Shown piece after piece: positions 1,622 to 49,442 of a DNA stretch of 64,000 nucleotides; position 1 is the stretch's first letter, and each line of letters starts with the position of its first letter. This DNA is from Chrysopilus asiliformis (Eukaryota > Arthropoda > Insecta > Diptera > Rhagionidae): the NCBI GenBank assembly GCA_964034945.1, contig OZ035962.1:87212650-87276649 (forward strand), read 5' to 3'. The position numbers and the translations under genes were made by a program. Under the pieces are notes generated by a model that made no database searches, was not told where the DNA came from, and saw only the letters and a program-made list of their open reading frames with translations.

Positions 1622-1629
1622 GTTGAATA
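1622..1629. repeat. 8-bp target-site duplication, left copy (GTTGAATA)
   Basis: GTTGAATA directly precedes the CAGTGTTG terminus at 1,630. It is repeated exactly at 26,314-26,321, directly after the CAACACTG terminus that ends at 26,313. An 8-bp duplication is the signature of hAT transposition. Confidence 0.85.
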
Positions 1630-2628
1630 CAGTGTTGTGCCGGTTTTTTACGTAAAGTAATTTACCTAGTTTTTTACGCGTAAAAAATTACGCGTAAAAA
1701 ACCTCAATTTTAACGTCAAAACGTAAAAAACGTAAAAATCTGTAAAAAACCTAAAACATTGATGATAAAAACTTTAATAAATAGCCGTTCACTAAATATA
1801 GTAATTATTTGTAAATAAATCACCTTAGAACAATAAAAAGGTTAATAGTCTTCAGCAAACAAAGAATTCAAAAGCATTTCCTCTTGAAAGTGAAAAAGAT
1901 TTTAAACTCGGAGTTCAAAAACTGTTTATATCCTATCATTACATTACGTCAGCCTACTCATTTTAACGTTAATTAATGTGAATAATGTGGAGAGATTTGT
2001 GACATATGGGCTATTTTAACCCTTTGTTGCAGTGTTGTTGTGCAACAACACCTTTTCTAATTCAGTTTTTTTAATATTATAACATATATTTCATGCACTT
2101 ATATTGACTAAATTCATTTCGTAAGTATCCTAGGACATCAATTGTTATGAAAAAAAAGTAATATGCGCTTTTTTTATAATTACTGCATTTTATAAATAAA
2201 TAAAGAGCAAAAAAGTAACTATTTTGCAGATTAAATGTAACTGTGGCAAATTTATTACAGTTAAAAAATCGGTAATTAGCTTTATAAAGGTTTTTGGGGT
2301 CGCTAATTACGAATCTGAAGTCAAAACTTCAAAATGGCGGATCCAATATGGCGGTCGAAAAAGATAAAATTACGTACTAGTTTTAAGCGTAATCTAATGA
2401 ATTTTATCTTTTTTGACCGCCATATTGGATCGGCCATTTTGATTTTTGATGTTTTGACTTCAGATTCGTAATCAGCGACCCCAAAAACCCTCGGATACCA
2501 AAAACCGTGAAAATTAATTCCATAGAAATATGTATGCATGAAAGGGTTAAAGAAACATATTTGAACTAGTTCTTGCAGCAATAAGCGTAATTATAAAGTT
2601 TGCATCAAAAAATCGTTTTTAAACACAA
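1630..2628 (+). repeat. Left arm (copy 1) of the hAT-like element
   Basis: This arm matches 24,445-25,394 in the same orientation with only scattered differences. It starts at the CAGTGTTG terminus and ends at 'gtttttaaacacaa', where copy 1 passes into the 17-bp repeat and copy 2 continues into unique sequence. Copy 1 has about 45 bp more subterminal sequence just inside the terminus (extra 'ttttttacg' motifs). Both copies contain the roughly 200-bp inverted repeat listed separately. No coding function is seen. Confidence 0.85.
2289..2489. repeat. Inverted repeat inside left arm copy 1
   Basis: The start, ggtttttggggtcgct, pairs with agcgaccccaaaaacc at the end. Arms of about 85-95 bp (GAATCTGAAGTCAAAAC / GTTTTGACTTCAGATTC, then CCAATATGGCGGTCG / CGACCGCCATATTGG with small gaps) surround a loop of about 20 nt. 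It is a foldback structure, possibly an older MITE captured by the larger element. Confidence 0.75.
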
Positions 2629-2783
2629 AAAAAGGTGCGGTTTTTAAACCAAAAAAAGGTGCGGCACCAAAAAAGGTGCGGCACCAAAAAAGGTGCGGCA
2701 CCAAAAAAAGGTGCGGCACCAAAAAAGGTGCTGCACCAAAATAGGTGCGGCACCAAAAAAGGTGCGGCACAAAAAAGGTGCGG
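2629..2783 (+). repeat. 17-bp tandem repeat block, left (GGTGCGGCACCAAAAAA)
   Basis: Units of 17-18 bp made of the near-palindrome GGTGC-G-GCACC followed by an A6-7 tract. The block passes directly into the octamer array through the shared heptamer GGTGCGG at 2,777-2,783. The first unit reads ggtgcggtttttaaacc, linking it to the end of the arm. The same repeat forms the much longer block at 23,421-24,440. Confidence 0.9.
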
Positions 2784-5700
2784 TGTGGAGGTGGGGAGGT
2801 GTGGAGGTGTGGTGGTGTGGGGGTGTGGGGGTGTGGAGGTGTGGTGGTGCGGGGGTGCGGAGGTGTGGAGGTGTTTGGGTGCGGGGGTGCGGTGGTGCGG
2901 AGGTGTGGAGGTGTGGAGGTGTGGTGGTGCGGAGGTGCGGAGGTGTGGAGGTGTGGAGGTGTGGAGGTGTGGAGGTGTTAGGGTGCGGGGGTGCGGAGGT
3001 GTGGAGGTGTGGAGGTGTTGGGGTGCGGTGGTGCGGTGGTGTGGAGGTGCGGAGGTGTGGTGGTGCGCAGGTGTAAGGGTGCGGGGGTGCGGAGGTGTTG
3101 GGGTGCGGAGGTGCGGAGGTGTGGAGGTGTGGAGGTGTGGAGGTGTGGAGGTGTGGAAGTGCGGAGGTGCGGGGGTGCGGAGGTGTGGAGGTGTGGAGGT
3201 GTGGGTGCGGAGGTGCGGGGGTGCGGAGGTGTGGTGGTGCGGTGGTGCGGAGGTGTGGTGGTGTGGAGGTGTGGAGGTGTGAGGGTGCGGAGGTGCGGAG
3301 GTGTGGAGGTGTGGAGGTGTGGTGGTGTGGAGGTGTGGTGGTGCGGGGGTGCGGAGGTGTGGAGGTGTTGGGGTGTTGGGGTGCGGAGGTGCGGTGGTGT
3401 GGAGGTGCGGAGGTGTGGTGGTGCGCAGGTGTTATGGTGCGGGGGTGCGGAGGTGTGGGGGTGCGGAGGTGTGGAGGTGTGGAGGTGTGGAGGTGTGGAG
3501 GTGTGGAGGTGTGGAGGTGGAGGTGGAGGTGTGGAGGTGTGGAGGTGTGGAGGTGTGGAGGTGTGGAAGTGCGGGGGTGCGGTGGTGCGGAGGTGTGGAG
3601 GTGTGGAGGTGTGGGTGCGTGGGTGCGGAGGTGTGGTGGTGCGGTGGTGCGGAGGTGTGGAGGTGTGGAGGTGTGGAGGTGTGGGGGTGCGGAGGTGCGG
3701 AGGTGTGGAGGTGTGGAGGTGTGGAGGTGTGGGGTGCGGAGGTGCGGAGGTGTGGAGGTGCGGTGGTGCGGAGGTGCGGAGGTGTGGGGTGCGGAGGTGC
3801 GGAGGTGCGGAGGTGCGGAGGTGTGGAGGTGTGGAGGTGTGGAGGTGTGGAGGTGTGGAGGTGTGGAGGTGGAGGTGGAGGTGTGGAGGTGTGGAGGTGT
3901 GGAGGTGTGGAGGTGTGGAGGTATGGAGGTGTGGTGGTGTGGAGGTGTGGTGGTGTGGAGGTTGGTGGTGCGGAGTGGTGGTGCGCAGGTGTTAGGGTGC
4001 GGGGGTGCGGAGGTGTGTGGGTGCGGAGGTGTGGAGGTGTGGAGGTGCGGAGGTGTGGAGGTGTGGAGGTGTGGAGGTGTGAGGGTGCGGAGGTGTGGAG
4101 GTGTGGAGGTGTGGAGGTGTGGAGGTGTGGTGGTGCGGAGGTGTGGAGGTGTGGTGGTGCGGTGGTGTGGAGGTGTTGGGGTGCGGAGGTGTGGTGGTGT
4201 GGAGGTGCGGAGGTGTGGAGGTGTGGAGGTGCGGAGGTGTGGAGGTGTGGAGGTGGGGGTGTGGAGGTGGAGGTGTGGTGGTGGAGGTGTGGTGGTGTGG
4301 AGGTGGAGGTGTGGAGGTGTGGATGTGTGGAGGTGTTGGGGTGCGGGGTGCGGAGGTGTGGAGGTGTGGTGGTGCGGTGGTGCGGTGGTGCGGAGGTGTG
4401 GAGGTGTGGTGGTGCGGAGGTGCGGAGGTGTGGAGGTGCGGTGGTGCGGGGGTGCGGATGTGTGGAGGTGTGGAGGTGTGGAGGTGTGGAGGTGTGGAGG
4501 TGTGGAGGTGTGGAGGTGTGGAGGTGGGAGGTGCTGTGGTGCGGAGGTGTGGAGGTGTGGAGGTGTGGAGGTGTGGAGGTGTGGAGGTGTGGATGTGTGG
4601 TGGTGTGGAGGTGTGGTGGTGTGGAGGTTGGGGGTGCGGAGTGGTGGTGCGCAGGTGTTAGGGTGCGGGGGTGCGGAGGTGTGTGGGTGCGGGGTGCGGA
4701 GGCGTGGAGGTGTGGTGGTGCGGAGGTGTGGAGGTGTGGAGGTGTGGAGGTGTGGAGGTGTGAAAGTGTGGAGGTGTTACGGTGCGGTGGTGCGGAGGTG
4801 TGGGGGTGCGGTGGTGCGGTGGTGCGGAGGTGTGGGGGTGTGGAGGTGTGGAGGTGTGGAGGTGGAGGTGTGGGGTGGAGGTGTGGAGGTGGGGGTGTGG
4901 AGGTGGAGGTGTGGTGGTGGAGGTGTGGAGGTGCGGAGGTGCGAGGGTGCGGAGGTGTGGAGGTGTGGAGGTGTGGAGGTGTGGAGGTGTGGAGGTGTGG
5001 AGGTGTGGAGGTGGAGGTGGAGGTGTGGAGGTGAGGAGGTGTGGAGGTGTGGAGGTGTGGAGGTGTGGAGGTGTGGTGGTGTGAGGGTGCGGAGGTGCGG
5101 ACGTGTGGAGGTGTGGAGGTGTGGAGGCGGGGAGGTGTGGAGGTGTGGAGGTGTGAGGGTGCGGAGGTGCGGAGGTGTGGAGGTGTGGAGGTGTGGTGGC
5201 GTGGAGGTGTGGTGGTGCGGAGGTGTGGAGGTGTGGAGGTGCGGTGGTGTGGAGGTGTTGGGGTGCGGAGGTGTGGTGGTGTGGAGGTGCGGAGGTGTGG
5301 AGGTGTGGAGGTGCGGAGGTGTGGAGGTGTGGAGGTGGGTGTGTGGAGGTGTGGAGGTGTGAGGGTGCGGAGGTGCGGAGGTGTGGAGGTGTGGAGGTGT
5401 GGTGGCGTGGAGGTGTGGAGGTGTGGAGGTGTGGAGGTGGAGGTGTGGAGGTGGAGGTGTGGAGGTGGGGGTGTGGAGGTGGAGGTGTGGTGGTGGAGGT
5501 GTGGTGGTGCGGTGGTGCGGTGGTGCGGAGGTGTGGGGTGCGGTGGTGCGGAGGTGTGGAGGTGTGGAGGTGTGGGGTGCGGAGGTGCGGATGTGTGGAG
5601 GTGTGGAGGTGTGGAGGTGTGAAAGTTAGGTGGTGTGGGGTGCGGGGGTGCGGAGGTGGTGGTATGAGGGTGCGGAGGTGTGGGGGTGCGGCGGTGCGGT

Positions 5701-8317
5701 GGTGCGGAGGTGTGGAGGTGCGGTGGTGCGGGTGTGGAGGTGTGGAGGTGTGGAGGTGTGGAGGTGTTAGGGTGCGGGGGTGCGGAGGTGTGGAGGTGTG
5801 GAGGTGTTGGGGTGTGGAGGTGGGGGTGTGGAGGTGGAGGTGTGGTGGTGGAGGTGTGGTGGTGTGGAGGTGGATGTGTGGCGGTGTGGATGTGTGGAGG
5901 TGTTGTGGTGCGGGGTGCGGAGGTGTGGAGGTGTGGTGGTGCGGTGGTACGGTGGTGCGGAGGTGTGGTGGTGTGGTGGTGCGGAGGTGCGGAGGTGTGG
6001 TGGTGCCGTGGTGCGGGGGTGCGGATGTGTGGAGGTGTGGAGGTGTGGAGGTGTGGTGGTGTGGAGGTGTGGAGGTGGGGAGGTGCTGTGGTGCGGAGGT
6101 GTGGAGGTGTGGAGGTGTGGAGGTGTGGAGGTGTGGAGGTGTGGAGGTGTGGTGGTGTGGAGGTGTGGTGGTGTGGTGGTTGGGGGTGCGGAGTGGTGGT
6201 GCGCAGGTGTTAGGGTGCGGGGGTGCGGAGGTGTGTGGGTGCGGTGGTGCGGAGGCGTGGAGGTGTGGGGGTGCGGAGGTGTGGAGGTGTGGAGGTGTGG
6301 AGGTGCGGAGGTGTGGAGGTGTGGTGGTGCGGTGGTGTGGTGGTGTTGGGGTGTGGAGGTGTGGAGGTGTGGAGGTGTTGAGGTGCGGGGTGCGGAGGTG
6401 TGGAGGTGTGGAGGTGTGGAGGTGCGGTGGTGCGGCGGTGCGGAGGTGTGGAGGTGTGGAGGTGTGGAGGTGTAGTGGTGCGGAGGTGTGGAGGTGGGGG
6501 TGTGGAGGTGGAGACCTGGGGTGGAGGTGTGGAGGTGGAGGTGGAGGTGTGGTGGTGTGGAGGTGTGGAGGTGTGGTGGTGTGGAGGTGTGGAGGTGTGG
6601 AGGTGGTGGTGTGGTGGTGTGGTGGTGTGGAGGTGTTGGGGTGCGGAAGTGTGGAGGTGTGGAGGTGTGGAGGTGTGGTGGTGTGGGGTGCGGAGGTGTG
6701 GTGGTGTGGTGGTGTGGAGGTGGGGTGGTGTGGAGGTGTGGAGGTGTGGAGGTGCCGTGGTGCGGTGGTGCGGAGGTGTGGAGGTGTGGAGGTCTGTGGT
6801 GCGGTGGTGCGGTGGTGCGGGGGTGCGGACGTGCGGGGGTGCGGTGGTGCGGAAGTCCGGAGGTGTGGAGGTGCGGATGTGTGGAGGTGTGGAGGTGTGG
6901 AGGTGTGGTGGTGTGGAGGTGTGGTGGTGTGGAGGTGTGGAGGTGTGGTGGTGTGGAGGTGTGGAGGTGTGGAGGTGGGGGTGCGGAGGTGTGGAGGTGT
7001 GGAGGTGTTGGGGTGCGGAAGTGTGGAGGTGTGGAGGTGTGGAGGTGTGGAGGTGTGGAGGTGCCGTGGTGCGGGGTGCGGAGGTGTGGAGGTGTGGAGG
7101 TGTGTGGTGCGGTGGTGCGGGGGTGCGGTGGTGCGTGGGTGCGGAGGTGCGGAGGTCCGGAGGTGTGGAGGTGCGGAGGTGCGGATGTGTGGAGGTGTGG
7201 AGGTGTGGTGGTGTGGAGGTGTGGCGGTGTGGAGGTGTGGAGGTGTGGAGGTGTGGAGGTGTGAAAGTGTGGAGGTGTTAGGGTGCGGGGGTGCGGAGGT
7301 GTGGGGGTGCGGCGGTGCGGGGTGCGGAGGTGTGGGGGTGCGGAGGTGTGGAGGTGTGGAGGTGGAGGTGTGGAGGTGGAGGTGTGGAGGTGGGGGTGTG
7401 GAGGTGGAGGTGTGGTGGTGGAGGTGTGGTGGTGCGGTGGTGCGGTGGTGCGGAGGTGTGGGGTGCGGAGGTGCGGAGGTGTGGAGGTGTGGAGGTGTGT
7501 GGTGCGGAGGTGCGGATGTGTGGAGGTGTGGAGGTGTGGAGGTGTGAAAGTGTGGTGGTAGGGGTGCGGGGGTGCGGAGGTGGTGGTGCGAGGGTGCGGA
7601 GGTGTGGGGGTGCGGTGGTGCGGAGGTGTGGAGGTGCGGGGTGCGGGTGTGGAGGTGTGGAGGTGTGGAGGTGTGGAGGTGTGGAGGTGTGGTGGTGGAG
7701 GTGGTGGTGTGGAGGTGTGGAGGTGTGGAGGTGTGGAGGTGCGGAGGTGTGGAGGTGTGGAGGTGTGAGGGTGCGGGGGTGCGGAGGTGTGGAGGTGTGG
7801 AGGTGTGGAGGTGTTAGGGTGCGGGGGTGCGGAGGTGTGGAGGTGTGGAGGTGTTGGGGTGCGGAGGTGCGGTGGTGTGGAGGTGCGGAGGTGTGGTGGT
7901 GCGCAGGTGTTAGGGTGCGGGGGTGCGGAGGTGTGGGGGTGCGGAGGTGTGGAGGTGTGGAGGTGTGGAGATGTGGAGGTGGAGGTGGAGGTGTGGAGGT
8001 GTGGAGGTGTGGAGGTGTGGAGGTGTGGAGGTGTGGAGGTGTGGAGGTGTGGAGGTGTGGAGGTGTGTGGGTGCGGAGGTGCGGAGGTGTGGAGGTGTGG
8101 AGGTGTGGAGGTGTGGTGGTGTGTGGGTGCGGGGGTGCGGAGGTGTGGAGGTGTGGAGGTGTTGGGGTGCGGTGGTGCGGAGGTGTTGGGGTGCGGAGGT
8201 GTGGTGGTGCGCAGGTGTTACGGTGCGGGGGTGCGGTGGTGTGGGGGTGCGGAGGTGCGGTGGTGCGGAGGTGTGGAGGTGTGGAGGTGTGGAGGTGTGG
8301 AGGTGTGGAGGTGTGGA

Positions 8318-10919
8318 GGTGGAGGTGTGGAGGTGTGGAGGTGTTGGGGTGTGGAGGTGTGGAGGTGCGGGGGTGCGGAGGTGTGGAGGTGTGGAGGTGT
8401 TGGGGTGCGGAGGTGCGGAGGTGTTGGGGTGCGGAGGTGTGGTGGTGCGCAGGTGTTACGGTGCGGGGGTGCGGTGGTGTGGGGGTGCGGAGGTGCGGAG
8501 GTGCGGAGGTGTGGAGGTGTGGAGGTGTGGAGGTGTGGAGGTGTGGAGGTGTGGAGGTGGAGGTGTGGAGGTGTGGAGGTGTTGGGGTGTGGAGGTGTGG
8601 AGGTGTGGCGGTGTGGAAGTGCGGAGGTGCGGAGGTGCGGAGGTGTGGGGTGTGGAGGTGTGGAGGCGGGGAGGTGTGGAGGTGTGGAGGTGTGAGGGTG
8701 CGGAGGTGCGGAGGTGTGGAGGTGTGGAGGTGTGGAGGCGTGGAGGTGTGGAGGTGCGGAGGTGTGGAGGTGTGGAGGTGCGGTGGTGTGGAGGTGTTGG
8801 GGTGCGGAGGTGTGGTGGTGTGGAGGTGTGGAGGTGTGGAGGTGTGTGGTGCGGTGGTGCGGAGGTGTGGTGGTGCGGAGGTGCGGGGGTGCGGAGGTGT
8901 GGAGGTGCGGTGGTGCGGTGGTGCGGAGGTGCGGAGGTGTGGAGGTGTGGAGGTGTGGAGGTGTGGAGGTGTGGAGGTGGAGGTGGAGGTGTGGTGGTGT
9001 GGAGGTGTGGAGGTGTGGAGGTGTGGAGGTGTGGAGGTGTGGAGGTGTGGTGGTGTGGTGGTGTGGAGGTGTGAGGGTGCGGAGGTGCGGACGTGTGGAG
9101 GTGTGGAGGCGGGGAGGTGTGGAGGTGTGGAGGTGTGAGGGTGCGGAGGTGCGGAGGTGTGGAGGTGTGGAGGTGTGGAGGCGTGGAGGTGTGGAGGTGC
9201 GGAGGTGTGGAGGTGTGGAAGTGCGGTGGTGTGGAGGTGTTGGGGTGCGGAGGTGTGGTGGTGTGGAGGTGCGGAGGTGTGGAGGTGTGGAGGTGCGGAG
9301 GTGTGGAGGTGTGGAGGTGTGGGTGTGGAGGTGGAGGTGTGGTGGTGGAGGTGTGGTGGTGTGGAGGTGGATGTGTGGAGGTGTGGATGTGTGGAGGTGT
9401 TGGGGTGCGGGGTGCGGAGGTGTGGAGGTGTGGTGGTGCGGTGGTGCGGTGGTGCGGTGGTGCGGAGGTGTGGAGGTGCGGTGGTGCGGTGGTGCGGAGG
9501 TGTGGTGGTGCCGTGGTGCGGGGGTGCGGATGTGTGGAGGTGTGGAGGTGTGGAGGTGTGGAGGTGTGGAGGTGGGGAGGTGCTGTGGTGCGGAGGTGTG
9601 GAGGTGTGGAGGTGTGGAGGTGGAGGTGTGGAGGTGTGGAGGTGTTGGGGTGTGGAGGTGTGGAGGTGCGGGGGTGCGGAGGTGTGGAGGTGTGGAGGTG
9701 TTGGGGTGCGGAGGTGCGGAGGTGTTGGGGTGCGGAGGTGTGGTGGTGCGCAGGTGTTACGGTGCGGGGGTGCGGTGGTGTGGGGGTGCGGAGGTGCGGA
9801 GGTGCGGAGGTGTGGAGGTGTGGAGGTGTGGAGGTGTGGAGGTGTGGAGGTGTGGAGGTGGAGGTGTGGAGGTGTGGAGGTGTTGGGGTGTGGTGGTGTG
9901 GAGGTGTGGCGGTGTGGAAGTGCGGAGGTGCGGAGGTGCGGAGGTGTGGGGTGTGGAGGTGTGGAGGCGGGGAGGTGTGGAGGTGTGGAGGTGTGAGGGT
10001 GCGGAGGTGCGGAGGTGTGGAGGTGTGGAGGTGTGGAGGCGTGGAGGTGTGGAGGTGCGGAGGTGTGGAGGTGTGGAGGTGCGGTGGTGTGGAGGTGTTG
10101 GGGTGCGGAGGTGTGGTGGTGTGGAGGTGTGGAGGTGTGGAGGTGTGTGGTGCGGTGGTGCGGAGGTGTGGTGGTGCGGAGGTGCGGGGGTGCGGAGGTG
10201 TGGAGGTGCGGTGGTGCGGTGGTGCGGAGGTGCGGAGGTGTGGAGGTGTGGAGGTGTGGAGGTGTGGAGGTGTGGAGGTGGAGGTGGAGGTGTGGTGGTG
10301 TGGAGGTGTGGAGGTGTGGAGGTGTGGAGGTGTGGAGGTGTGGAGGTGTGGTGGTGTGGTGGTGTGGAGGTGTGAGGGTGCGGAGGTGCGGACGTGTGGA
10401 GGTGTGGAGGCGGGGAGGTGTGGAGGTGTGGAGGTGTGAGGGTGCGGAGGTGCGGAGGTGTGGAGGTGTGGAGGTGTGGAGGCGTGGAGGTGTGGAGGTG
10501 CGGAGGTGTGGAGGTGTGGAAGTGCGGTGGTGTGGAGGTGTTGGGGTGCGGAGGTGTGGTGGTGTGGAGGTGCGGAGGTGTGGAGGTGTGGAGGTGCGGA
10601 GGTGTGGAGGTGTGGAGGTGTGGGTGTGGAGGTGGAGGTGTGGTGGTGGAGGTGTGGTGGTGTGGAGGTGGATGTGTGGAGGTGTGGATGTGTGGAGGTG
10701 TTGGGGTGCGGGGTGCGGAGGTGTGGAGGTGTGGTGGTGCGGTGGTGCGGTGGTGCGGTGGTGCGGAGGTGTGGAGGTGCGGTGGTGCGGTGGTGCGGAG
10801 GTGTGGTGGTGCCGTGGTGCGGGGGTGCGGATGTGTGGAGGTGTGGAGGTGTGGAGGTGTGGAGGTGTGGAGGTGGGGAGGTGCTGTGGTGCGGAGGTGT
10901 GGAGGTGTGGAGGTGTGGA
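8318..10919 (+). repeat. Tandem pair of ~1.3-kb higher-order repeats in the array
   Basis: Landmarks in the first unit reappear about 1,301 bp later: the ggtggaggtgtggaggtg step at about 8,318 and 9,619, the ggcggtgtggaagtgcgg marker at about 8,606 and 9,907, and the gaggcgggg marker at about 8,666 and 9,967. The copies look nearly identical by eye. The spacing is not a multiple of 8, so the repeat includes indel-bearing octamers. This points to recent segmental duplication inside the array. Confidence 0.75.
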
Positions 10920-13399
10920 GGTGTGGAGGTGTGGTGGTGTGGAGGTGTGGTGGTGTGGAGGTTGGTGGTGCGGAGTGGTGGTGCGCAGGTGTTAGGGTGC
11001 GGGGGTGCGGAGGTGTGTGGGTGCGGAGGTGCGGAGGCGTGGAGGTGTGGAGGTGCGGAGGTGTGGTGGTGTGGAGGTGTGGAGGTGCGGAGGTGTGGAG
11101 GTGTGGTGGTGTGGTGGTGTGGAGGTGTTGGGGTGTGGTGGTGTGGAGGTGTGGAGGTGTTGGGGTGCGGGGTGCGGAGGTGTGGAGGTGTGGAGGTGCG
11201 GGGGTGCGGCGGTGCGGAGGTGCGGAGGTGTGGAGGTGTGGAGGTGTGGTGGTGCGGAGGTGTGGGGGTGGGGGTGTGGAGGTGGAGATCTGGGGTGGAG
11301 GTGTGGAGGTGGAGGTGGAGGTGTGGTGGTGTGGAGGTGTGGAGGTGTGGTGGTGTGGAGGTGTGGAGGTGTGGAGGTGGTGGTGTGGTGGTGTGGAGGT
11401 GTGGAGGTGTTGGGGTGCGGAAGTGTGGAGGTGTGGAGGTGTGGAGGTGTGGTGGTGTGGGGTGCGGAGGTGCGGTGGTGTGGTGGTGTGGAGGTGTGGT
11501 GGTGTGGAGGTGTGGAGGTGTGGAGGTGTGGAGGTGCCGTGGTGCGGTGATGCGGAGGTGTGGAGGTGTGGAGGTCTGAGGTGCGGAGGTGCGGTGGTGC
11601 GGTGGTGGTGCGGTGGTGCGGACGTGCGGGGGAAGTCCGGAGGTGTGGAGGTGCGGATGTGTGGAGGTGTGGAGGTGTGGAGGTGTGGTGGTGTTGGGGT
11701 GTGGTGGTGTGGAGGTGTGGAGGTGTGGTGGTGTGATGGTGTGGAGGTGTGGAGGTGGGGGTGCGGAGGTGTGGAGGTGTGGAGGTGTGGAGGTGTTGGG
11801 GTGCGGAAGTGTGGAGGTGTGGAGGTGTGGAGGTGTGGAGGTGCCGTGGTGCGGTGGTGCGGAGGTGTGGAGGTGTGTGGTGCGGTGGTGCGGTGGTGCG
11901 GGGGTGCGGTGGTGCGAGGGTGCGGAGGTGCGGAGGTCCGGAGGTGTGGAGGTGCGGAGCTGCGGATGTGTGGATGTGTGGAGGTGTGGTGGTGTGGAGG
12001 TGTGGAGGTGTGGAGGTGTGGAGGTGTGGAGGTGTGGAGGTGTGGAGGTGTGAAAGTGTGGGGGTGCGGCGGTGCGGTGGTGCGGAGGTGTGGTGGTGCG
12101 GAGGTGTGGAGGTGTGGAGGTGGAGGTGTGGAGGTGGAGGTGTGGAGGTGGGAGTGTGGAGGTGGAGGTGTGGTGGTGGAGGTGTGGTGGTGCGGTGGTG
12201 CGGTGGTGCGGAGGTGTGGGGTGCGGATGTGCGGAGGTGTGGAGGTGTGGAGGTGTGTGGTGCGGAGGTGCGGATGTGTGGAGGTGTGGAGGTGTGAAAG
12301 TGTGGTGGTGTGGGGTGCGGTGGTGCGGAGGTGGTGGTGCGAGGGTGCGGAGGTGTGGGGGTGCGGCGGTGCGGTGGTGCGGAGGTGTGGAGGTGCGGTG
12401 GTGCGGGTGTGGAGGTGTGGAGGTGTGGAGGTGTTAGGGTGCGGGGGTGCGGAGGTGTGGAGGTGTGGAGGTGTTGTGGTGCGGAGGTGCGGTGGTGTGG
12501 AGGTGCGGAGGTGTGGTGGTGCGCAGGTGTTAGGGTGCGGTGGTGCGGAGGTGTGGGGGTGCGGAGGTGTGGAGGTGTGGAGGTGGAGGTGGTGGTGTGG
12601 AGGTGTGGAGGTGTGGAGGTGTGGAGGTGTGGAGGTGCGGAGGTGTGGAGGTGTGGAGGTGTGAGGGTGCGGGGGTGCGGAGGTGTGGAGGTGTGGAGGT
12701 GTGGAGGTGTGGAGGTGTGGAGGTGTTACGGTGCGGGGGTGCGGAGGTGTGGAGGTATGGAGGTGTTGGTGTGCGGAGGTGCGGTGGTGTGGTGGTGCGG
12801 AGGTGTGGTGGTGCGCAGGTGTTAGGGTGCGGGGGTGCGGAGGTGTGGGGGTGCGGAGGTGTGGAGGTGTTTAGGTGTGGAGGTGTGGAGGTGGAGGTGG
12901 AGGTGTGGAGGTGTGGAGGTGTGGAGGTGTGGAGGTGTGGAGGTGTGGATGTGCGGTGGTGCGGAGGTGCGGAGGTGTGGCGGTGTGGAGGTGTGGGTGC
13001 GGGGGTGCGGGGGTGCGGAGGTGTGGTGGTGCGGAGGTGTGGTGGTGTGGAGGTGTGGAGGTGTGTGGGTGCGGAGGTGCGGAGGTGCGGAGGTGTGGAG
13101 GTGTGGAGGTGTGGAGGTGTTGGGGTGCGGTGGTGCGGTGGTGTGGAGGTGCGGAGGTGTGGTGGTGCGCAGGTGTTACGTTGCGGTGGTGCGGAGGTGT
13201 GGGGGTGCGGAGGTGCGGAGGTGTGGTGGTGCGGAGGTGCGGGGGTGCGGGGGTGCGGAGGTGCGGAGGTCCGGAGGTGTGGAGGTGCGGAGGTGCGGAT
13301 GTGTGGAGGTGTGGAGGTGTGGTGGTGTGGAGGTGTGGAGGTGTGGTGGTGCGGAGGTGTGGAGGTGTGGAGGTGTTGTGGTGCGGAGGTGCGGTGGTG

Positions 13400-15489: not shown

Positions 15490-17800
15490 GTGAAAGTGTG
15501 GTGGTGTGGGGTGCGGGGGTGCGGAGGTGGTGGTGTGAGGGTGCGGAGGTGTGGGGGTGCGGCGGTGCGGTGGTGCGGAGGTGTGGAGGTGCGGTGGTGC
15601 GGGTGTGGTGGTGTGGAGGTGTGGAGGTGTGGAGGTGTTAGGGTGCGGGGGTGCGGAGGTGTGGAGGTGTGGAGGTGTTGGGGTGTGGAGGTGGGGGTGT
15701 GGAGGTGGAGGTGTGGTGGTGGAGGTGTGGTGGTGTGGAGGTGGATGTGTGGCGGTGTGGATGTGTGGAGGTGTTGTGGTGCGGGGTGCGGAGGTGTGGA
15801 GGTGTGGTGGTGCGGGGGTACGGTGGTGCGGAGGTGTGGTGGTGTGGTGGTGCGGAGGTGCGGAGGTGTGGTGGTGCCGTGGTGCGGGGGTGCGGATGTG
15901 TGGAGGTGTGGAGGTGTGGAGGTGTGGAGGTGTGGAGGTGTGGAGGTGTGGAGGTGTGGTGGTGTGGAGGTGTGGTGGTGTGGTGGTTGGGGGTGCGGAG
16001 TGGTGGTGCGCAGGTGTTAGGGTGCGGGGGTGCGGAGGTGTGTGGGTGCGGTGGTGCGGAGGCGTGGAGGTGTGGGGGTGCGGAGGTGTGGAGGTGTGGA
16101 GGTGTGGTGGTGCGGAGGTGTGGAGGTGTGGTGGTGCGGTGGTGTGGTGGTGTTGGGGTGTGGAGGTGTGGACGTGTGGAGGTGTTGGGGTGCGGGGTGC
16201 GGAGGTGTGGAGGTGTGGAGGTGCGGTGGTGCGGCGGTGCGGAGGTGTGGAGGTGTGGAGGTGTAGTGGTGCGGAGGTGTGGAGGTGGGGGTGTGGAGGT
16301 GGAGACCTGGGGTGGAGGTGTGGAGGTGGAGGTGGAGGTGTGGTGGTGTGGAGGTGTGGAGGTGTGGTGGTGTGGAGGTGTGGAGGTGTGGAGGTGGTGG
16401 TGTGGTGGTGTGGTGGTGTGGAGGTGTTGGGGTGCGGAAGTGTGGAGGTGTGGAGGTGTGGAGGTGTGGTGGTGTGGGGTGTGGTGGTGTGGTGGTGTGG
16501 TGGTGGGGTGGTGTGGAGGTGTGGAGGTGTGGAGGTGTGGAGGTGCCGTGGTGCGGTGGTGCGGAGGTGTGGAGGTGTGGAGGTCTGTGGTGCGGAGGTG
16601 CGGTGGTGCGGCGGTGCGGACGTGCGGGGGTGCGGTGGTGCGGAAGTCCGGAGGTGTGGAGGTGCGGATGTGTGGAGGTGTGGAGGTGTGGAGGTGTGGA
16701 GGTGTGGTGGTGTGGAGGTGTGGTGGTGTGGAGGTGTGGAGGTGTGGAGGTGTGGTGGTGTGGAGGTGTGGAGGTGTGGAGGTGGGGGTGCGGAGGTGTG
16801 GAGGTGTGGAGGTGTTGGGGTGCGGAAGTGTGGAGGTGTGGAGGTGTGGAGGTGTGGAGGTGTGGAGGTGCCGTGGTGCGGGGTGCGGAGGTGTGGAGGT
16901 GTGGAGGTGTGTGGTGCGGAGGTGCGGTGGTGCGGGGGTGCGGTGGTGCGTGGGTGCGGAGGTGCGGTGGTCCGGAGGTGTGGAGGTGCGGAGGTGCGGA
17001 TGTGTGGAGGTGTGGAGGTGTGGTGGTGTGGAGGTGTGGCGGTGTGGAGGTGTGGAGGTGTGGAGGTGTGGAGGTGTGAAAGTGTGGAGGTGTTAGGGTG
17101 CGGGGGTGCGGAGGTGTGGGGGTGCGGCGGTGCGGGGTGCGGAGGTGTGGGGGTGCGGAGGTGTGGAGGTGTGGAGGTGGAGGTGTGGAGGTGGAGGTGT
17201 GGAGGTGGGGGTGTGGAGGTGGAGGTGTGGTGGTGGAGGTGTGGTGGTGCGGTGGTGCGGTGGTGCGGAGGTGTGGGGTGCGGAGGTGCGGAGGTGTGGA
17301 GGTGTGGAGGTGTGTGATGCGGAGGTGCGGATGTGTGGAGGTGTGGAGGTGTGGAGGTGTGAAAGTGTGGTGGTAGGGGTGCGGGGGTGCGGAGGTGGTG
17401 GTGCGAGGGTGCGGAGGTGTGGGGGTGCGGCGGTGCGGGGGTGCGGAGGTGTGGAGGTGCGGGGTGCGGGTGTGGAGGTGTGGAGGTGTGGAGGTGTGGA
17501 GGTGTGGAGGTGTGGAGGTGGAGGTGGTGGTGTGGAGGTGTGGAGGTGTGGAGGTGTGGAGGTGTGGAGGTGCGGAGGTGTGGAGGTGTGGAGGTGTGAG
17601 GGTGCGGGGGTGCGGAGGTGTGGAGGTGTGGAGGTGTGGAGGTGTGGAGGTGTGGAGGTGTTAGGGTGCGGGGGTGCGGAGGTGTGGAGGTGTGGAGGTG
17701 TTGTGGTGCGGAGGTGCGGTGGTGTGGAGGTGCGGAGGTGTGGTGGTGCGCAGGTGTTAGGGTGCGGAGGTGCGGAGGTGTGGGGGTGCGGAGGTGTGGA
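15490..17800 (+). repeat. Array segment duplicated from ~5.6-7.9 kb
   Basis: The 'ggtgtggggtgcgggggtgcggaggtggtggt' block at about 5,632 recurs at about 15,500. The gtggtaggggtgcgggg marker at about 7,555 recurs at about 17,370, an offset of about 9.8 kb. The many intervening markers (ggagacctgggg, ggaggtccggagg) keep their order. Boundaries are approximate. Confidence 0.6.
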
Positions 17801-20800
17801 GGTGTGGAGGTGTGGAGATGTGGAGGTGGAGGTGGAGGTGTGGAGGTGTGGAGGTGTGGAGGTGTGGAGGTGTGGAGGTGTGGAGGTGTGGAGGTGTGGA
17901 TGTGCGGAGGTGCGGTGGTGCGGAGGTGTGGAGGTGTGGAGGTGTGGGTGCGGCGGTGCGGGGGTGCGGAGGTGTGGTGGTGCGGAGGTGCGGAGGTGTG
18001 GTGGTGTGGAGGTGTGGAGGTGTGTGGGTGCGGAGGTGCGGAGGTGTGGAGGTGTGGAGGTGTGGAGGTGTGGTGGTGTGGGGGTGCGGGGGTGCGGAGG
18101 TGTGGAGGTGTGGAGGTGTTGGGGTGCGGGGGTGCGGAGGTGTTGGGGTGCGGAGGTGTGGTGGTGCGCAGGTGTTACGGTGCGGGGGTGCGGTGGTGTG
18201 GGGGTGCGGAGGTGCGGAGGTGCGGAGGTGTGGAGGTGTGGAGGTGTGGAGGTGTGGAGGTGTGGAGGTGTGGAGGTGGAGGTGGAGGTGTGGAGGTGTG
18301 GAGGTGTGGAGGTGTGGAGGTGTTGGGGTGTGGCGGTGTGGAAGTGCGGAGGTGCGGAGGTGCGGAGGTGTGGGGTGTGGAGGTGTGGGTGCGTGGGTGC
18401 GGAGGTGTGGTGGTGCGGTGGTGCGGAGGTGTGGAGGTGTGGAGGTGTGGAGGTGTGGTGGTGCGGAGGTGCGGAGGTGTGGAGGTGTGGAGGTGTGGAG
18501 GTGTGGGGTGCGGAGGTGCGGAGGTGTGGTGGTGCGGAGGTGCGGTGGTGCGGAGGTGTGGAGGTGCGGTGGTGCGGAGGTGCGGAGGTGCGTGGGTGCG
18601 GAGGTGTGGAGGTGTGGAGGTGTGGAGGTGTGGAGGTGTGGAGGTGTGGAGGTGGAGGTGGAGGTGTGGTGGTGTGGAGGTGTGGAGGTGTGGAGGTGTG
18701 GAGGTGTGGAGGTGTGGAGGTGTGGTGGTGTGGTGGTGTGGAGGTGTGAGGGTGCGGAGGTGCGGACGTGTGGAGGTGTGGAGGCGGGGAGGTGTGGAGG
18801 TGTGGAGGTGTGGTGGTGCGGTGGTGCGGTGGTGCGGTGGTGCGGAGGTGTGGAGGTGTGGTGGTGCGGTGGTGCGGAGGTGTGGTGGTGCCGTGGTGCG
18901 GGGGTGCGGATGTGTGGAGGTGTGGAGGTGTGGAGGTGTGGAGGTGTGGAGGTGTGGAGGTGGGGAGGTGCTGTGGTGCGGAGGTGTGGAGGTGTGGAGG
19001 TGTGGAGGTGTGGAGGTGTGGAGGTGTGGAGGTGTGGAGGTGTGGTGGTGTGGAGGTTGGTGGTGCGGAGTGGTGGTGCGCAGGTGTTAGGGTGCGGGGG
19101 TGCGGAGGTGTGTGGGTGCGGAGGTGCGGAGGCGTGGAGGTGTGGAGGTGCGGAGGTGTGGAGGTGTGGAGGTGTGGAGGTGCGGAGGTGTGGAGGTGTG
19201 GTGGTGTGGTGGTGTGGAGGTGTTGGGGTGTGGAGGTGTGGAGGTGTGGAGGTGTTGGGGTGCGGGGTGCGGAGGTGTGGAGGTGTGGAGGTGTGGAGGT
19301 GCGGTGGTGCGGCGGTGCGGAGGTGCGGAGGTGTGGAGGTGTGGAGGTGTGGTGGTGCGGAGGTGTGGAGGTGGGGGTGTGGAGGTGGAGATCTGGGGTG
19401 GAGGTGTGGAGGTGGAGGTGGAGGTGTGGTGGTGTGGAGGTGTGGAGGTGTGGTGGTGTGGAGGTGTGGAGGTGTGGAGGTGGTGGTGTGGTGGTGTGGA
19501 GGTGTGGAGGTGTTGGGGTGCGGAAGTGTGGAGGTGTGGAGGTGTGGAGGTGTGGTGGTGTGGGGTGCGGAGGTGCGGTGGTGTGGTGGTGTGGAGGTGT
19601 GGTGGGGTGGAGGTGTGGAGGTGTGGAGGTGTGGAGGTGCCGTGGTGCGGTGATGCGGAGGTGTGGAGGTGTGGAGGTCTGAGGTGCGGAGGTGCGGTGG
19701 TGCGGTGGTGCGGACGTGCGGGGGTGCGGTGGTGCGGAAGTCCGGAGGTGTGGAGGTGCGGATGTGTGGAGGTGTGGAGGTGTGGAGGTGTGGTGGTGTT
19801 GGGGTGTGGTGGTGTGGAGGTGTGGAGGTGTGGTGGTGTGATGGTGTGGAGGTGTGGAGGTGGTGGTGCGGAGGTGTGGAGGTGTGGAGGTGTTGGGGTG
19901 CGGAAGTGTGGAGGTGTGGAGGTGTGGAGGTGTGGAGGTGTGGAGGTGCCGTGGTGCGGGGGTGCGGAGGTGTGGAGGTGTGTGGTGCGGTGGTGCGGTG
20001 GTGCGGGGGTGCGGTGGTGCGAGGGTGCGGAGGTGCGGAGGTCCGGAGGTGTGGAGGTGCGGAGCTGCGGATGTGTGGAGGTGTGGAGGTGTGGTGGTGT
20101 GGAGGTGTGGAGGTGTGGAGGTGTGGAGGTGTGGAGGTGTGGAGGTGTGAAAGTGTGGGGGTGCGGCGGTGCGGTGGTGCGGAGGTGTGGGGGTGCGGAG
20201 GTGTGGAGGTGTGGAGGTGGAGGTGTGGCGGTGGAGGTGTGGAGGTGGGAGTGTGGAGGTGGAGGTGTGGTGGTGGAGGTGCGGCGGTGCGGTGGTGCGG
20301 TGGTGCGGAGGTGTGGGGTGCGGATGTGCGGAGGTGTGGAGGTGTGGAGGTGTGTGGTGCGGAGGTGCGGATGTGTGGAGGTGTGGAGGTGTGAAAGTGT
20401 GGTGGTGTGGGGTGCGGGGGTGCGGAGGTGGTGGTGCGAGGGTGCGGAGGTGTGGGGGTGCGGCGGTGCGGTGGTGCGGAGGTGTGGAGGTGTGGAGGTG
20501 TTGTGGTGCGGAGGTGCGGTGGTGTGGAGGTGCGGAGGTGTGGTGGTGCGCAGGTGTTAGGGTGCGGGGGTGCGGAGGTGTGGGGGTGCGGAGGTGTGGA
20601 AGTGTGGAGGTGGAGGTGGTGGTGTGGAGGTGTGGAGGTGTGGAGGTGTGGAGGTGTGGAGGTGCGGAGGTGTTAGGGTGCGGGGGTGCGGAGGTGTGGA
20701 GGTGTGGAGGTGTTGTGGTGCGGAGGTGCGGTGGTGTGGAGGTGCGGAGGTGTGGTGGTGCGCAGGTGTTAGGGTGCGGGGGTGCGGAGGTGTGGGGGTG

Positions 20801-23420
20801 CGGAGGTGTGGAGGTGTGGAGGTGGAGGTGGTGGTGTGGAGGTGTGGAGGTGTGGAGGTGTGGAGGTGTGGAGGTGCGGAGGTGTGGAGGTGTGGAGGTG
20901 TGAGGGTGCGGGGGTGCGGAGGTGTGGAGGTGTGGAGGTGTGGAGGTGTGGAGGTGTGGTGGTGTGGTGGTGCGGGGGTGCGGAGGTGTGGAGGTGTGGA
21001 GGTGTTGGGGTGCGGTGGTGCGGTGGTGTGGAGGTGCGGAGGTGTGGTGGTGCGCAGGTGTTACGGTGCGGTGGTGCGGAGGTGTGGGGGTGCGGAGGTG
21101 CGGAGGTGTGGTGGTGCGGAGGTGCGGGGGTGCGGGGGTGCGGAGGTGCGGAGGTCCGGAGGTGTGGAGGTGCGGAGGTGCGGATGTGTGGAGGTGTGGA
21201 GGTGTGGTGGTGTGGAGGTGTGGAGGTGTGGTGGTGCGGAGGTGTGGAGGTGTGGAGGTGTTGTGGTGCGGAGGTGCGGTGGTGTGGTGGTGCGGAGGTG
21301 TGGTGGTGCGCAGGTGTTAGGGTGCGGGGGTGCGGAGGTGTGGGGGTGCGGAGGTGTGGGGGTGCGGAGGTGTGGAGGTGTTTAGGTGTGGAGGTGTGGT
21401 GGTGGAGGTGGAGGTGTGGAGGTGTGGAGGTGTGGAGGTGTGGAGGTGTGGAGGTGTGGAGGTGTGGAGGTGTGGAGGTGTGGAGGTGTGGAGGTGTGGA
21501 GGTGTGGAGGTGTGGTGGTGTGGAGGTTGGTGGTGCGGAGTGGTGGTGCGCAGGTGTTAGGGTGCGGGGGTGCGGAGGTGTGTGGGTGCGGAGGTGCGGA
21601 GGCGTGGAGGTGTGGAGGTGCGAAGGTGTGGAGGTGTGGAGGTGTGGAGGTGCGGAGGTGTGGAGGTGTGGTGGTGCGGTGGTGTGGAGGTGTTGGGGTG
21701 TGGAGGTGTGGAGGTGTGGAGGTGTTGGGGTGCGGGGTGCGGAGGTGTGGAGGTGTGGGGTGCGGTGGTGCGGCGGTGCGGAGGTGTGGAGGTGTGGAGG
21801 TGTGGAGGTGTGGTGGTGCGGAGGTGTGGAGGTGGGGGTGTGGAGGTGGAGATCTGGGGTGGAGGTGTGGAGGTGGAGGTGGAGGTGTGGTGGTGTGGAG
21901 GTGTGGAGGTGTGGTGGTGTGGAGGTGTGGAGGTGGTGGTGTGGTGGTGTGGAGGTGTTGGGGTGCGGAAGTGTGGAGGTGTGGAGGTGTGGAGGTGTGG
22001 AGGTGTGGTGGTGTGGGGTGCGGAGGTGCGGTGGTGTGGTGGTGTGGAGGTGTGGTGGTGTGGAGGTGTGGAGGTGTGGAGGTGTGGAGGTGCCGTGGTG
22101 CGGTGGTGCGGAGGTGTGGGGTGTGGAGGTCTGTGGTGCATGGTGCGGGGGTGCGGCGGTGCGGACGTGCGGGGGTGCGGTGGTGCGGAAGTCCGGAGGT
22201 GTGGAGGTGCGGATGTGTGGAGGTGTGGAGGTGTGGAGGTGTGGAGGTGTGGTGGTGTGGAGGTGTGGTGGTGTGGAGGTGTGGAGGTGTGGAGGTGTGG
22301 AGGTGTGGTGGTGTGGAGGTGTGGAGGTGTGGAGGTGGGGGTGCGGAGGTGTGGAGGTGTGGAGGTGTTGGGGTGCGGAAGTGTGGAGGTGTGGAGGTGT
22401 GGAGGTGTGGAGGTGCCGTGGTGCGGTGGTGCGGAGGTGTGGAGGTGTGGAGGTGTGTGGTGCGGAGGTGCGGTGGTGCGGTGGTGCGGCGGTGCGGGGG
22501 TGCGGAGGTGCAGGGTCCGGAGGTGTGGAGGTGCGGAGGTGCGGATGTGTGGAGGTGTGGAGGTGTGGTGGTGTGGAGGTGTGGAGGTGTGGAGGTGTGG
22601 AGGTGTGGAGGTGTGAAAGTGTGGAGGTGTTAGGGTGCGGGGGTGCGGAGGTGTGGGGGTGCGGTGGTGCGGAGGTGTGGTGGTGCGGAGGTGCGGATGT
22701 GTGGAGGTATGGAGGTGTGGTGGTGTGGAGGTGTGGTGGTGTGGAGGTGTGGTGGTGTGGAGGTGTGGAGGTGTGGAGGTGTGGAGGTGTGGAGGTGTGG
22801 AGGTGTGGAGGGGTGTGGAGGTGTGTCGGTGCGGAGGTGTGGTGGTGTGGAGGTGTGGAGGTGCGGAGGTGTGGAGGTGGGGGTGTGGAGGTGGAGATGT
22901 GGGGTGGAGGTGTGGAGGTGTGGAGGTGGAGGTGTGGAGGTGTGGAGGTGTGGAGGTGTGGAGGTGTGGAGGTGTGGAGGTGTGGAGGTGCGGAGGTGCG
23001 GTGGTGCGGTGGTGTGGAGGTGTGGTGGTGCGGAGGTGCGGATGTGTGGAGGTGTGGAGGTGTGGTGGTGTGGAGGTGTGGTGGTGTGGAGGTGTGGAGG
23101 TGTGGAGGTGTGGAGGTGTGGAGGTGTGGTGGTGTGGAGGTGTGGAGATGTGGAGGTGTGGAGGTGTGGAGGTGTGGAGGTGCGGAGGTGCGGTGGTGCG
23201 GTGGTGTGGAGGTGTGGAGGTGTGGAGGTGTGGGGTGCGGTGGTGCGGAGGTGTGGTGGTGCGGCGGTGCGGAGGTGCGGTGGTGCGGAGGTGTGGGGTG
23301 CGGAGGTGTGGAGGTGCGGAGGTGTGGAGGTGCGGAGGTGTGGAGGTGTGGAGGTGTGGAGGTGCGGAGGTGTGGAGGTGTGGAGGTGCGGAGGTGTGGA
23401 GGTGGGGAGGTGTTGAGGTG

Positions 23421-24440
23421 GCACCAAAAAAGGTGCGGCACCAAAAAAGGTGCGGCACCAAAATAGGTGCGGCACCAAAAAAGGTGCGGCACCAAAAAAA
23501 GGTGCGGCACCAAAAAAGGTGCGGCACCAAAAAAAGTGCGGCACCAAAAAAGCTGCGGCACCAAAAAAAGGTGCGGCACCAAAAAAGGTGCGGCACCAAA
23601 ATAGATGCGGCACCAAAAAAGGTACGGCACCAAAAAAAGGTGCGGCACCAAAAAAGGTGCGGTACCAAAAAAAGGTGCGGCACCAAAAAAGGTGCGGCAC
23701 CAAAATAGGTGCGGCACCGAAAAAGGTGCGGCACCAAAAAAAGGTGCGGCACCAAAAAAAGTGCGGCACCAAAAAAAGTGCGGCACCAAAAAAGGTGCGG
23801 CACCAAAAAAAGTGCGGCACCAAAAAAAAGTGCGGCACCAAAAAAAGATGCGGCACCAAAAAAGGTGCGGCACCAAAAAAGGTGCGGCACCAAAAAAAGT
23901 ACGGCACCAAAAAAAGGTGCGGCACCAAAAAAAGGTGCGGCACCAAAATAGGTGCGGCACCAAAAAAGGTGCGGCACCAAAAAAGGTGCGGCACCAAAAT
24001 AGGTGCGGCACAAAAAAAGGTGCGGCACCAAAAAAGGTGCGGCACCAAAAAAGGTGCGGCACCAAAAAAATTGCGGCACCAAAAAAGGTGCGGCACCAAA
24101 AAAAGGTGCGGCACCAAAAAAGGTGCGGCACCAAAATAGGTGCGGCACCGAAAAAGGTGCGGCACCAAAAAAAGGTGCGGCACCAAAAAAGGTGCGGCAC
24201 CAAAAAAAGTGCGGCACCAAAAAAGTGCGGCACCAAAAAAAGATGCGGCACCAAAAAAGGTGCGGCACCAAAAAAAGTACGGCACCAAAAAAAGGTGCGG
24301 CACCAAAAAAGGTGCGGCACCAAAAAAAGTGCGGCACCAAAAAAAGTGCGGCACCAAAAAAATTATGGCACCAAAGAAAGTGCGGCACCAAAGTAGGGCA
24401 CCAAAGTACGGCACCAAAGTACGGCACCAAAGTACGGCAT
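23421..24440 (+). repeat. 17-bp tandem repeat block, right (GGTGCGGCACCAAAAAA)
   Basis: About 1.0 kb of 17-18-bp units identical in type to the left block, with point variants (aaaataggtgcgg, gaaaaaggtgcgg, aagatgcgg). The last units shorten and decay to 'agtacggcaccaa' before the internal CAGTGTTG at 24,445. The reading frames through it (RCGTKKGAAPK on plus, FGAAPFLVPHLF on minus) are repeat artefacts. Confidence 0.92.
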
Positions 24441-24444
24441 CAAA

Positions 24445-25394
24445 CAGTGTTGTTTTTACGCGTAAAAACCTCAATTTTAACGTAAAAAACGTAAAAAACT
24501 GTAAAAAACCTAAAACATTGATGATAAAAACTTTAATAAGTAGCCGTTCACTAAATATAGTAATTATTTGTAAATAAATCACCTTAGAACAATAAAAAGG
24601 TTAATAGTCTTCAGCAAACAAAGAATTCAAAAGCATTTCCTCTTGAAAGTGAAAAAGATTTTAAACTCGGAGTTCAAAAACTGTTTATATCCTATCATTA
24701 CATTACGTCCGCCTACTCATTTTAACGTTAATTAATGTGAACAATGTGGAGAGATTTGTGACATATGGGCTATTTTAACCCTTTGTTGCAGTGTTGTTGT
24801 GCAACAACACCTTTTCTAATTCAGTTTTTTTAATATTATAACATATATTTCATGCACTTATATTGACTAAATTCATTTCGTAAGTATCCTAGGACATCAA
24901 TTGTTATGAAAAAAAAGTAATATGCGCTTTTTTTATAATTACTGCATTTTATAAATAAATAAAGAGCAAAAAAGTAGCTTTTTGCAGATTAAATGAAACT
25001 GTGGCAAATCTATTACAGTTAAAAAAATCGGTAATTAGCTTTATAAAGGTTTTTGGGGTCGCTAATTACGAATCTGAAGTCAAAACTTCAAAATTCAAAC
25101 TGGTGCATCCAATATGGCGGTCGAAAAAGATAAAATTACGTACTAGTTTTAAGCGTAATCTAATGAATTTTATCTTTTTTGACCGCCATATTGGATCCGC
25201 CATTTCGATTTTTGAAGTTTTGACTTCAGATTCGTAATCAGCGACCCCAAAAACCCTCGGATACCAAAAACCGTGAAAATTAATTACATAGAAAAATGTA
25301 TGCATGAAAGGGTTAAAGAAACATATTTGGACTAGTTCTTGCAGCAATAAGCGTAATTTTAAAGTTTGCATCAAAAAATCGTTTTTAAACACAA
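24445..25394 (+). repeat. Left arm (copy 2), with an internal hAT terminus
   Basis: This is a direct repeat of 1,630-2,628, beginning CAGTGTTG-TTTTTACGCG. It is preceded by decayed 17-bp units, not by GTTGAATA, so this terminus did not make the flanking duplication. It continues without interruption into the unique right part at 25,395, which suggests that copy 2 preserves the ancestral arrangement of the element. Confidence 0.82.
25048..25255. repeat. Inverted repeat inside left arm copy 2
   Basis: Same foldback as at 2,289-2,489. The left half here carries a substitution/insertion near 'aaattcaaactggtgcatcc' relative to copy 1, so the pairing is slightly worse. Confidence 0.7.
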
Positions 25395-26313
25395 GGAGAC
25401 TCATTCCGAAGGCGTAAATTGAAACAAAACTGGAAAAAGGGAAAAGAAATTCTAAAAACTGGAAAAATTCCATTCAAACAACTGTTCTAATTTGAGTTAA
25501 TAGACTGTCCTACTTAGTAGTACAGTCTATTAAGTGCTGATGTCCACTCTCTATATTATAGGATCTCTAATAAAATGCTGAGAAAAACTTTTGTAATATA
25601 AGATGTTCAAAACTAAACAAGTTCAATAATGTTGCCTATAGCTCCGTTAATTTATTTTAACCTGCTGGTGGAGGAACCAGCAATTTAATAGGCGTCCAAA
25701 AGGACTGCCAGAATATTGAGAAAAAAAGCAACTGCTCGACTTAAGCGTTAGTTTATTTCTGAATTCTTCCTAGAGCTAATACGGCTTTTATAGGCGCCGC
25801 TTTCTTATTTACAATATTGCACATAATTCTACAAGTGCCCTAATTCTTAAATACATAATTACTTTCTTAAATGTTAAATAAACTTTTTCTCACGGTGCAC
25901 TTTGTTGTCTTAGGTTCGAAATCATAAATTATCAAATCGTCAATTATGTCATCCGAATCAAATTTCATCTTCGATTTGAATGCACCTTACTACCGTATGC
26001 TTGTGCATTGAGTGGACTTTATGTTGAGTCATGAAGTTCACAGCACGAGTAACCCATTGCATGCATACTTATGGTCATGTCGTAATTTGTCATCGATTGT
26101 TTATTTTGTTTTTAATTTATGATTTCGATACCATTACACTTTAAAACAGACTGTCATACTTTGTAGGAACTGCGAGGTCCCATTTTTTAGGTTTTTTACT
26201 ATTTTTTACGTTTTTTACGTTTTTACGGTTTTTTTACGTTTTTTACCAGTTTTTTACGTTTTTTACGTGAAAAATGTAAAAAACTGTTTTTTACGCCGTT
26301 TTGCCCAACACTG
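25395..26313. other. Unique right part and right terminus of the hAT-like element
   Basis: About 0.75 kb of AT-rich sequence without coding potential comes first. It includes a small hairpin, aatagactgt...acagtctatt, at about 25,499-25,532. From about 26,190 to 26,313 there are dense subterminal motifs (ttttttacgttttttacg), ending in CAACACTG at 26,313. Confidence 0.7.
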
Positions 26314-26321
26314 GTTGAATA

Positions 26322-49305: not shown

Positions 49306-49442
49306 CTTGGGTATGTAAAGCTTTTTTTTTTAAATATAATTTTCAAAAATATTTTTTCACACAAAATTCTATAATTAAATTTTCAATAGTTTCAACGGCG
49401 ATACTTCTTTCCAGTTTGAATGCTGCTAAGACGAAATGTTTA

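Follow-up and report, generated by a model that had tools for sequence, protein, structure and literature searches.

How satellite DNA comes to occupy dispersed sites has long been asked, and the answers draw in large part on the association of satellites with transposons. The window, a 64,000-bp stretch of the Chrysopilus asiliformis genome (C3:87212650-87276649 in a 429-Mb assembly of 42 contigs), poses this question in concrete form: a long tandem array lies between two hAT-like termini, and a sequence-only reading had claimed that both ends were inserted together, with the array inside them. Is the array part of one transposable unit, and has it moved as such?

The outer ends look like those of a single insertion. 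GTTGAATA occurs exactly at 1622-1629 and at 26314-26321, bracketing 1630-26313 as an 8-bp target site duplication, and the probability that two random 8-mers from the window flanks match is ~1e-4. The outer tips, CAGTGTTGTGC (from 1630) and GCCCAACACTG (to 26313), are both of the CAGTGTTG type and agree at 10 of 11 bases when read as the short terminal inverted repeats of a hAT element (CAGTGTTGTGC / CAGTGTTGGGC), while ACGTAAAAAAC-type subterminal motifs stand in inverted orientation at one end relative to the other. The claims of a perfect duplication, of similar subterminal motifs and of a mostly satellite interior are hereby borne out: the array (2629-24444, 21,816 bp) makes up 88% of the 24,684-bp unit. 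Three blocks lie inside the duplication, namely a 999-bp arm, 21.8 kb of tandem repeats and a 1869-bp element, giving the order L1-array-L2-R:

1622..1629, unstranded: left target site duplication GTTGAATA, exact match to 26314-26321
1630..2628, + strand: L1, the left arm, from an outer element truncated on its right, with the outer left terminus CAGTGTTGTGC; groups with other composites' L1
2614..2661, + strand: two 24-bp units in which element (CGTTTTTAAACACAA) and array sequence are mixed; a secondary junction, different from that of most other copies
2652..2783, + strand: left 17-mer array GGCACCAAAAAAGGTGC, ~8 copies (TRF)
2782..23420, + strand: octamer array GGTGTGGA / GGTGCGGA, strand-asymmetric (TRF)
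23420..24392, + strand: right 17-mer array, ~56 copies (TRF)
24377..24444, + strand: 13-mer array with GCATCAAA at its end; the right junction, matched exactly 20 times in the genome (TRF)
24445..26313, + strand: L2..R, complete non-autonomous hAT-like element, whose right end is the composite's outer right terminus
25592..26137, + strand: 546-bp insert in the element
26314..26321, unstranded: right target site duplication GTTGAATA, exact match to 1622-1629

What the sequence-only reading missed is the composite architecture, two element copies in direct orientation. The arm at 1630-2628 repeats the left half of the element at 24445-26313: positions 1688-2628 match 24456-25394 at 96.4% identity over 949 aligned columns, with 16 substitutions at 942 aligned sites between the L1 and L2 copies and a shorter inner tip. 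The inner CAGTGTTG tip at 24445 is preceded by GCATCAAA and not by GTTGAATA. The element itself had been put at ~1.9 kb, and such a copy is indeed complete in the window; plain copies elsewhere, however, measure ~1.36 kb, and the window copy holds the 546-bp insert, a stretch that, among the matches listed, is shared only by the window and locus L002 (the only two to cover query positions 1148-1693). The element contains no long transposase frame, the sole frame of at least 100 aa lying wholly inside 24445-26313 being one of 135 aa (25066-25473, - strand). Its terminus resembles that of BuT2, for which a passage in PMC3942097 gives the primer-derived tip CAGTGCTG together with hAT features. 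A foldback of ~200 bp lies within each arm copy (2289-2489 and 25048-25255), with strong predicted folding of 2285-2430 (z -10.3); it is perhaps an older element within the element.

A genome search with the element, in which 40 of 1859 candidates were scored, gave at least 30 loci drawn from 264 matches, part of which are listed. Among the 30 loci fetched, 12 are L2..R copies with the array and GCATCAAA or GCACCAAA on their left (L001, L002, L004, L005, L006, L008, L012, L013, L016, L018, L019, L025); four more have L2..R and the array with the inner tip lost (L003, L007, L009, L028); four are L1 arms followed by the array (L010, L014, L020, L021); and eight are plain ~1.36-kb elements, each with its own 8-bp duplication (L011, L015, L017, L023, L024, L026, L027, L029). 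The remaining two fit no class, with mismatching ends at L022 and no left tip found at L030. Target site duplications of 8 bp, as expected of hAT elements, are present in the window, in eight other composites and in eight plain copies.

The junctions between element and array are shared across these loci. On contigs C1-C4, the array-L2 junction GGCATCAAACAGTGTTG is matched exactly 20 times (control 0); these matches represent 19 places, as two of them belong to one locus at C1:23.63 Mb. The junction has the form GGCATCAAA joined to CAGTGTTG, and since the L2 tip follows GCATCAAA exactly in all 20 matches, the inner part of the composites points to one origin. On the left, the junction of GGTTTTTT with GCGGCACCAAAATAGG is identical in seven of 12 left arms read (L010, L020, L021, L033, L061, L064, L125), and GGTTTTTTGCGGCACCAAAATAGG marks left array junctions. 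In this shared form, the left copy stops ~116 bp short of the element's right terminus, and the array starts there. The arm of L014 is ~30 bp shorter with a similar array start, that of L085 reaches the same element position, those of L062 and L063 are broken by other DNA before it, and that of the window is cut further in. The different left junction common to the other copies implies that the window junction is derived, and on the same ground the element's CGTTTTTAAACACAA, by way of the 24-bp units, was dropped as the source of the 17-mer. Nested insertion followed by right-arm recombination at the window site was likewise set aside, as the 20 junction matches leave it at most the origin of the first composite. 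The array edges carry relationships of their own: among ten octamer-bearing flanks, six share the change GGTGTGGAGGTGGCACC (L002, L004, L006, L012, L013, L019); the window shows a single-base difference from it, and L005, L018 and L031 are more divergent. Aligned to the right array edge of L002, that of the window reaches 97.4% and needs 11 gaps, whereas four unrelated pieces of 17-mer array reach ~94% with 17-25 gaps.

A single unit ending in L1 and R predicts that the 8 bases to the right of R recur to the left of the far L1. The far end was sought for 12 array-bearing copies, namely the window, L002, L004, L005, L006, L008, L012, L013, L018, L019, L025 and L031. In 9 of the 12, L1 and R are bounded by a perfect 8-bp duplication, all nine being different, and the units span 3.3 to 27.0 kb; a tenth matches at 7 of 8 positions:

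Window: duplication GTTGAATA, 24,684 bp
L025/L010: duplication ATTAGAAC, 3,310 bp
L008/L014: duplication GAGGTGAG, 6,392 bp
L031/L033: duplication TTCCCCAT (+ strand reading), 27,014 bp
L004: duplication CATGTCCG, 14,617 bp
L005: duplication GTTATCAC, 13,819 bp
L012: duplication ATGATTAC, 9,366 bp
L006: duplication GTCATCAG, 10,521 bp
L013: duplication CCACCGAC, ~5.9 kb
L002: 7/8 match, CTGCTCTA / CTGTTCTA, ~10.25 kb

For four copies, the right flank predicted the far end, which a search then located in the correct orientation and with unit lengths of 9.4 to 14.6 kb, and a real L1 arm is present behind each of the four predicted flank matches; searches with merged flanks returned six matches in total, of which all but two lie at the predicted places. 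For L018 and L019, no element arm occurs in the 1.8 kb read where the array ends. Because each of the nine sites has its own duplication, the two arms behave as ends of one inserted array-bearing unit, and the assignment of the left end at 1630 to the same insertion holds up. Direct orientation with outer ends in one duplication is what defines a macrotransposon, and it is perfect in nine of the 12 copies, with one 7/8 match and two copies without an L1 found. A Helitron would leave no target duplication, whereas 8-bp duplications and inverted termini are present here. Two further observations concern the flanks. At C1:23.63 Mb (L031 and L032), the right end and its outer flank recur at a distance of 7.7 kb within the 27-kb composite, reflecting either a local tandem duplication or an assembly fault, and ATTGTAGT lies outside R in both L003 and L019, which are on different contigs.

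We therefore consider it very probable that the window interval is a natural macrotransposon, one of a family of composite hAT-like transposons carrying satellite arrays, and that it has moved as a unit. The transposase, direct use of L1 and R for movement and the origin of the first composite are our inferences, and we propose the following course. Two ~1.36-kb non-autonomous elements in direct orientation would have come to enclose a tandem array, either through two neighbouring insertions or through a nested one. The left copy, with its last ~116 bp and hence its right terminus missing, would be unable to move alone, so that a transposase acting in trans would pair the left end of L1 with the right end of R; everything between them would then move, an 8-bp target duplication would be made, and the length of the array would later be altered by large tandem duplications. 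The four tip-less copies (L003, L007, L009, L028) could not have used L2 as an end provided that loss of the tip preceded their movement, an order that the clustering of arms suggests. In such a scheme, the composite would give satellite DNA a tangible means of dispersal, and hAT-like ends 3 to 27 kb apart would act as one unit outside maize. The sequence-only reading had offered either a vehicle for arrays or extreme expansion after insertion. The vehicle is favored by nine composites with their own duplications, while expansion is possible in part, given that array lengths differ several-fold and the window array holds large tandem duplications, which may have arisen before or after landing.

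The strongest rival holds that plain elements already sat at these sites and acquired L1-array-L2 from another composite, through ectopic recombination or gap repair. This would also yield matching 8-bp duplications around the array, each site's own, and possible recipients are common, eight of the 30 fetched loci being plain with intact duplications. We nevertheless regard it as improbable, since the composites' outer arms cluster by position more than shuffled labels do. On a tree of 38 rows, the L1 arms require 3 label changes (shuffled mean 9.7) and the L2 arms 4 (shuffled mean 11.0), with none of 500 shuffles as low in either case; on an earlier 33-row tree, the L1 count was matched by one of 500 shuffles. 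Neither set of arms forms one clade on the 38-row tree, for which bootstrap support is not settled, and three plain copies (L011, L017, L024) fall among the L1 arms, a placement in favor of the recombination account. In seven of nine composites (a comparison that leaves out L013), each arm is closer to a same-position arm elsewhere than to its own partner, the exceptions being the 3.3-kb composite, whose arms are nearest each other, and the 6.4-kb composite, whose L1 is tied. L012 and L013 have a common deletion in L1 and are sisters in L2 (98/90). Other tests are less decisive: AU tests reject neither all six L1 arms as one clade (p 0.19) nor five of them (p 0.41), L1 and L2 distances across the nine composites are weakly correlated (Mantel r 0.39, p 0.06), and the uneven spread of L1/L2 differences is not significant (P 0.17 and 0.07). 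The single inner origin, with GCATCAAA before the L2 tip in 20 places, also speaks against copying into plain elements, although that account allows it too.

Less probable still is that one small element inserted at GTTGAATA and then underwent a local duplication of its left half, with a home-grown array that never moved. The 24-bp units at 2614-2661, which link element to array sequence, and the large tandem duplications in the array fit local growth, and an AU test retains the window's two arms as sisters (p 0.17). However, the same junctions occur at other sites, which local growth could survive only if they were assembly errors, and the window L1 is 0.5% from another composite's L1 compared to 1.8% from its own L2. 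That two unrelated insertions flank a resident satellite, the GTTGAATA match being fortuitous, would suit the different flank of the inner left end, GCATCAAA, but is scarcely credible at ~1e-4 for one pair when 9 of 12 composites match perfectly.

Taking the window interval as a macrotransposon copy, the nine duplications let the movement of array units be read from sequence, and copies of one lineage can be compared for array length and unit type. In the window, the octamer array is nested in the 17-mer array, the order being 17-mer, octamer, 17-mer, 13-mer. It contains collinear blocks at ~5472-15346 (9.8 kb) and ~15347-22900 (~7.6 kb) that differ by 55 mismatches at 6,132 aligned core sites (0.9% substitutions) and 33 gaps; the assignment rests on order over several kb, since with free gaps even unrelated pieces of 2 kb reach 94-98%, and a BLAST self-comparison for long blocks returned none. 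A 1301-bp tandem duplication from ~8291 is nearly unchanged, with identical runs of 1029 and 302 bases. Among composites, array length differs several-fold, and the near sibling L002, 0.7% away in L2, is only 10.25 kb long, so array length has shifted by thousands of bases within the life of the lineage, whether the window array grew or the L002 array shrank. Two-tetrad G-quadruplex motifs cover 77% of the octamer strand (57% in shuffles; three-tetrad motifs 0) and the 17-mer stretch forms predicted hairpins (z -7.8), structures that could possibly aid array instability. Within the L002 composite, the octamer array switches strand (L065, C3:77658000), apparently through an inversion in the array.

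The array is a satellite in the usual sense, being long and having its unit elsewhere in the genome, where a 27-bp pattern of the 17-mer has 2,679 exact matches, some overlapping (control 0). A third unit, the 18-mer GGCACGGTGCCAAATTAC, adjoins the same arms at L016, L009, L007, L028 and L086-L104; beyond L028, nine of nine 200-base samples up to 16 kb are 18-mer array, as are nine of ten up to 17 kb beyond L007. As 17-mer, octamer and 18-mer all lie beside or between the same arms, we propose, at even chances, that the hAT macrotransposon lineage is both breeding place and carrier of several satellites, whose units would arise there, grow to tens of kb and be seeded at new sites by transposition. 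A 17-mer array of more than 5 kb at C1:26831440-26836776 (L039-L060), where neither L039 nor L060, the two loci inspected, has an arm tip, may be a free-standing satellite or part of a larger composite. The window also holds minisatellites of the GTCTGTCG / GACAGACAGACC type (28836-29037, 35955-36204, 40205-40571).

Frames in the window include an uninterrupted mariner-type transposase frame of 350 codons (29642-30694, +) and two partial mariner-type frames (27100-27741 and 51245-51886, both -), all matching Pfam Transposase_1. A trypsin-family serine protease (37575-38546, -) lies near the array, and a CLIP (PPAF-2) domain match at 48988-49329 (-) falls below the curated cut-off; these trypsin-type and CLIP matches point to proteases of immune type close to the array and fit an insect-like genome.

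No report of this composite was found in the open-licence literature searched (titles, abstracts and passages). The octamer dimer, on either strand, is absent from the open-licence literature searched by repeat letters, while an 11-base core of the 17-mer, on one or other strand, occurs in five open-licence papers with unrelated-looking titles. Exact 17-mer, arm and octamer patterns gave 0 matches in viral contigs, and Rfam and tRNA scans gave 0. The composite family would be a natural counterpart of the maize Ac macrotransposons.

In maize, the termini of two nearby Ac and fractured-Ac elements act as ends of one unit (PMC9910405, PMC4270019), with reported sizes of 10.3 and 28 kb (PMC9910405). 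The composites described here resemble that system in their hAT chemistry, 8-bp target duplication and one fractured partner. The maize cases described there lie at the p1/p2 locus with genic and enhancer cargo, whereas here the cargo is satellite, the junction is present at 19 places in one genome, and both arms come from a transposase-less element. A second likeness is to Tetris / TIR-220 of Drosophila virilis, in which a tandem array was amplified within a non-autonomous DNA transposon; the repeats there are 220-bp units in long inverted repeats, unlike the long arrays found here in units with intact ends and perfect duplications, and its authors suggest that larger arrays may have disrupted transposition (PMC4079207). 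Drosophila virilis repeats (PMC10462019) are another relative. Helitrons and Helentrons with central repeats, for example in Crassostrea gigas, similarly bring tandem repeats to new sites by way of a mobile element (PMC8268682, PMC9659126), but they make no target duplication (PMC9659126) and their arrays are short, and their transposition seems to decay as internal repeats increase (PMC8268682).
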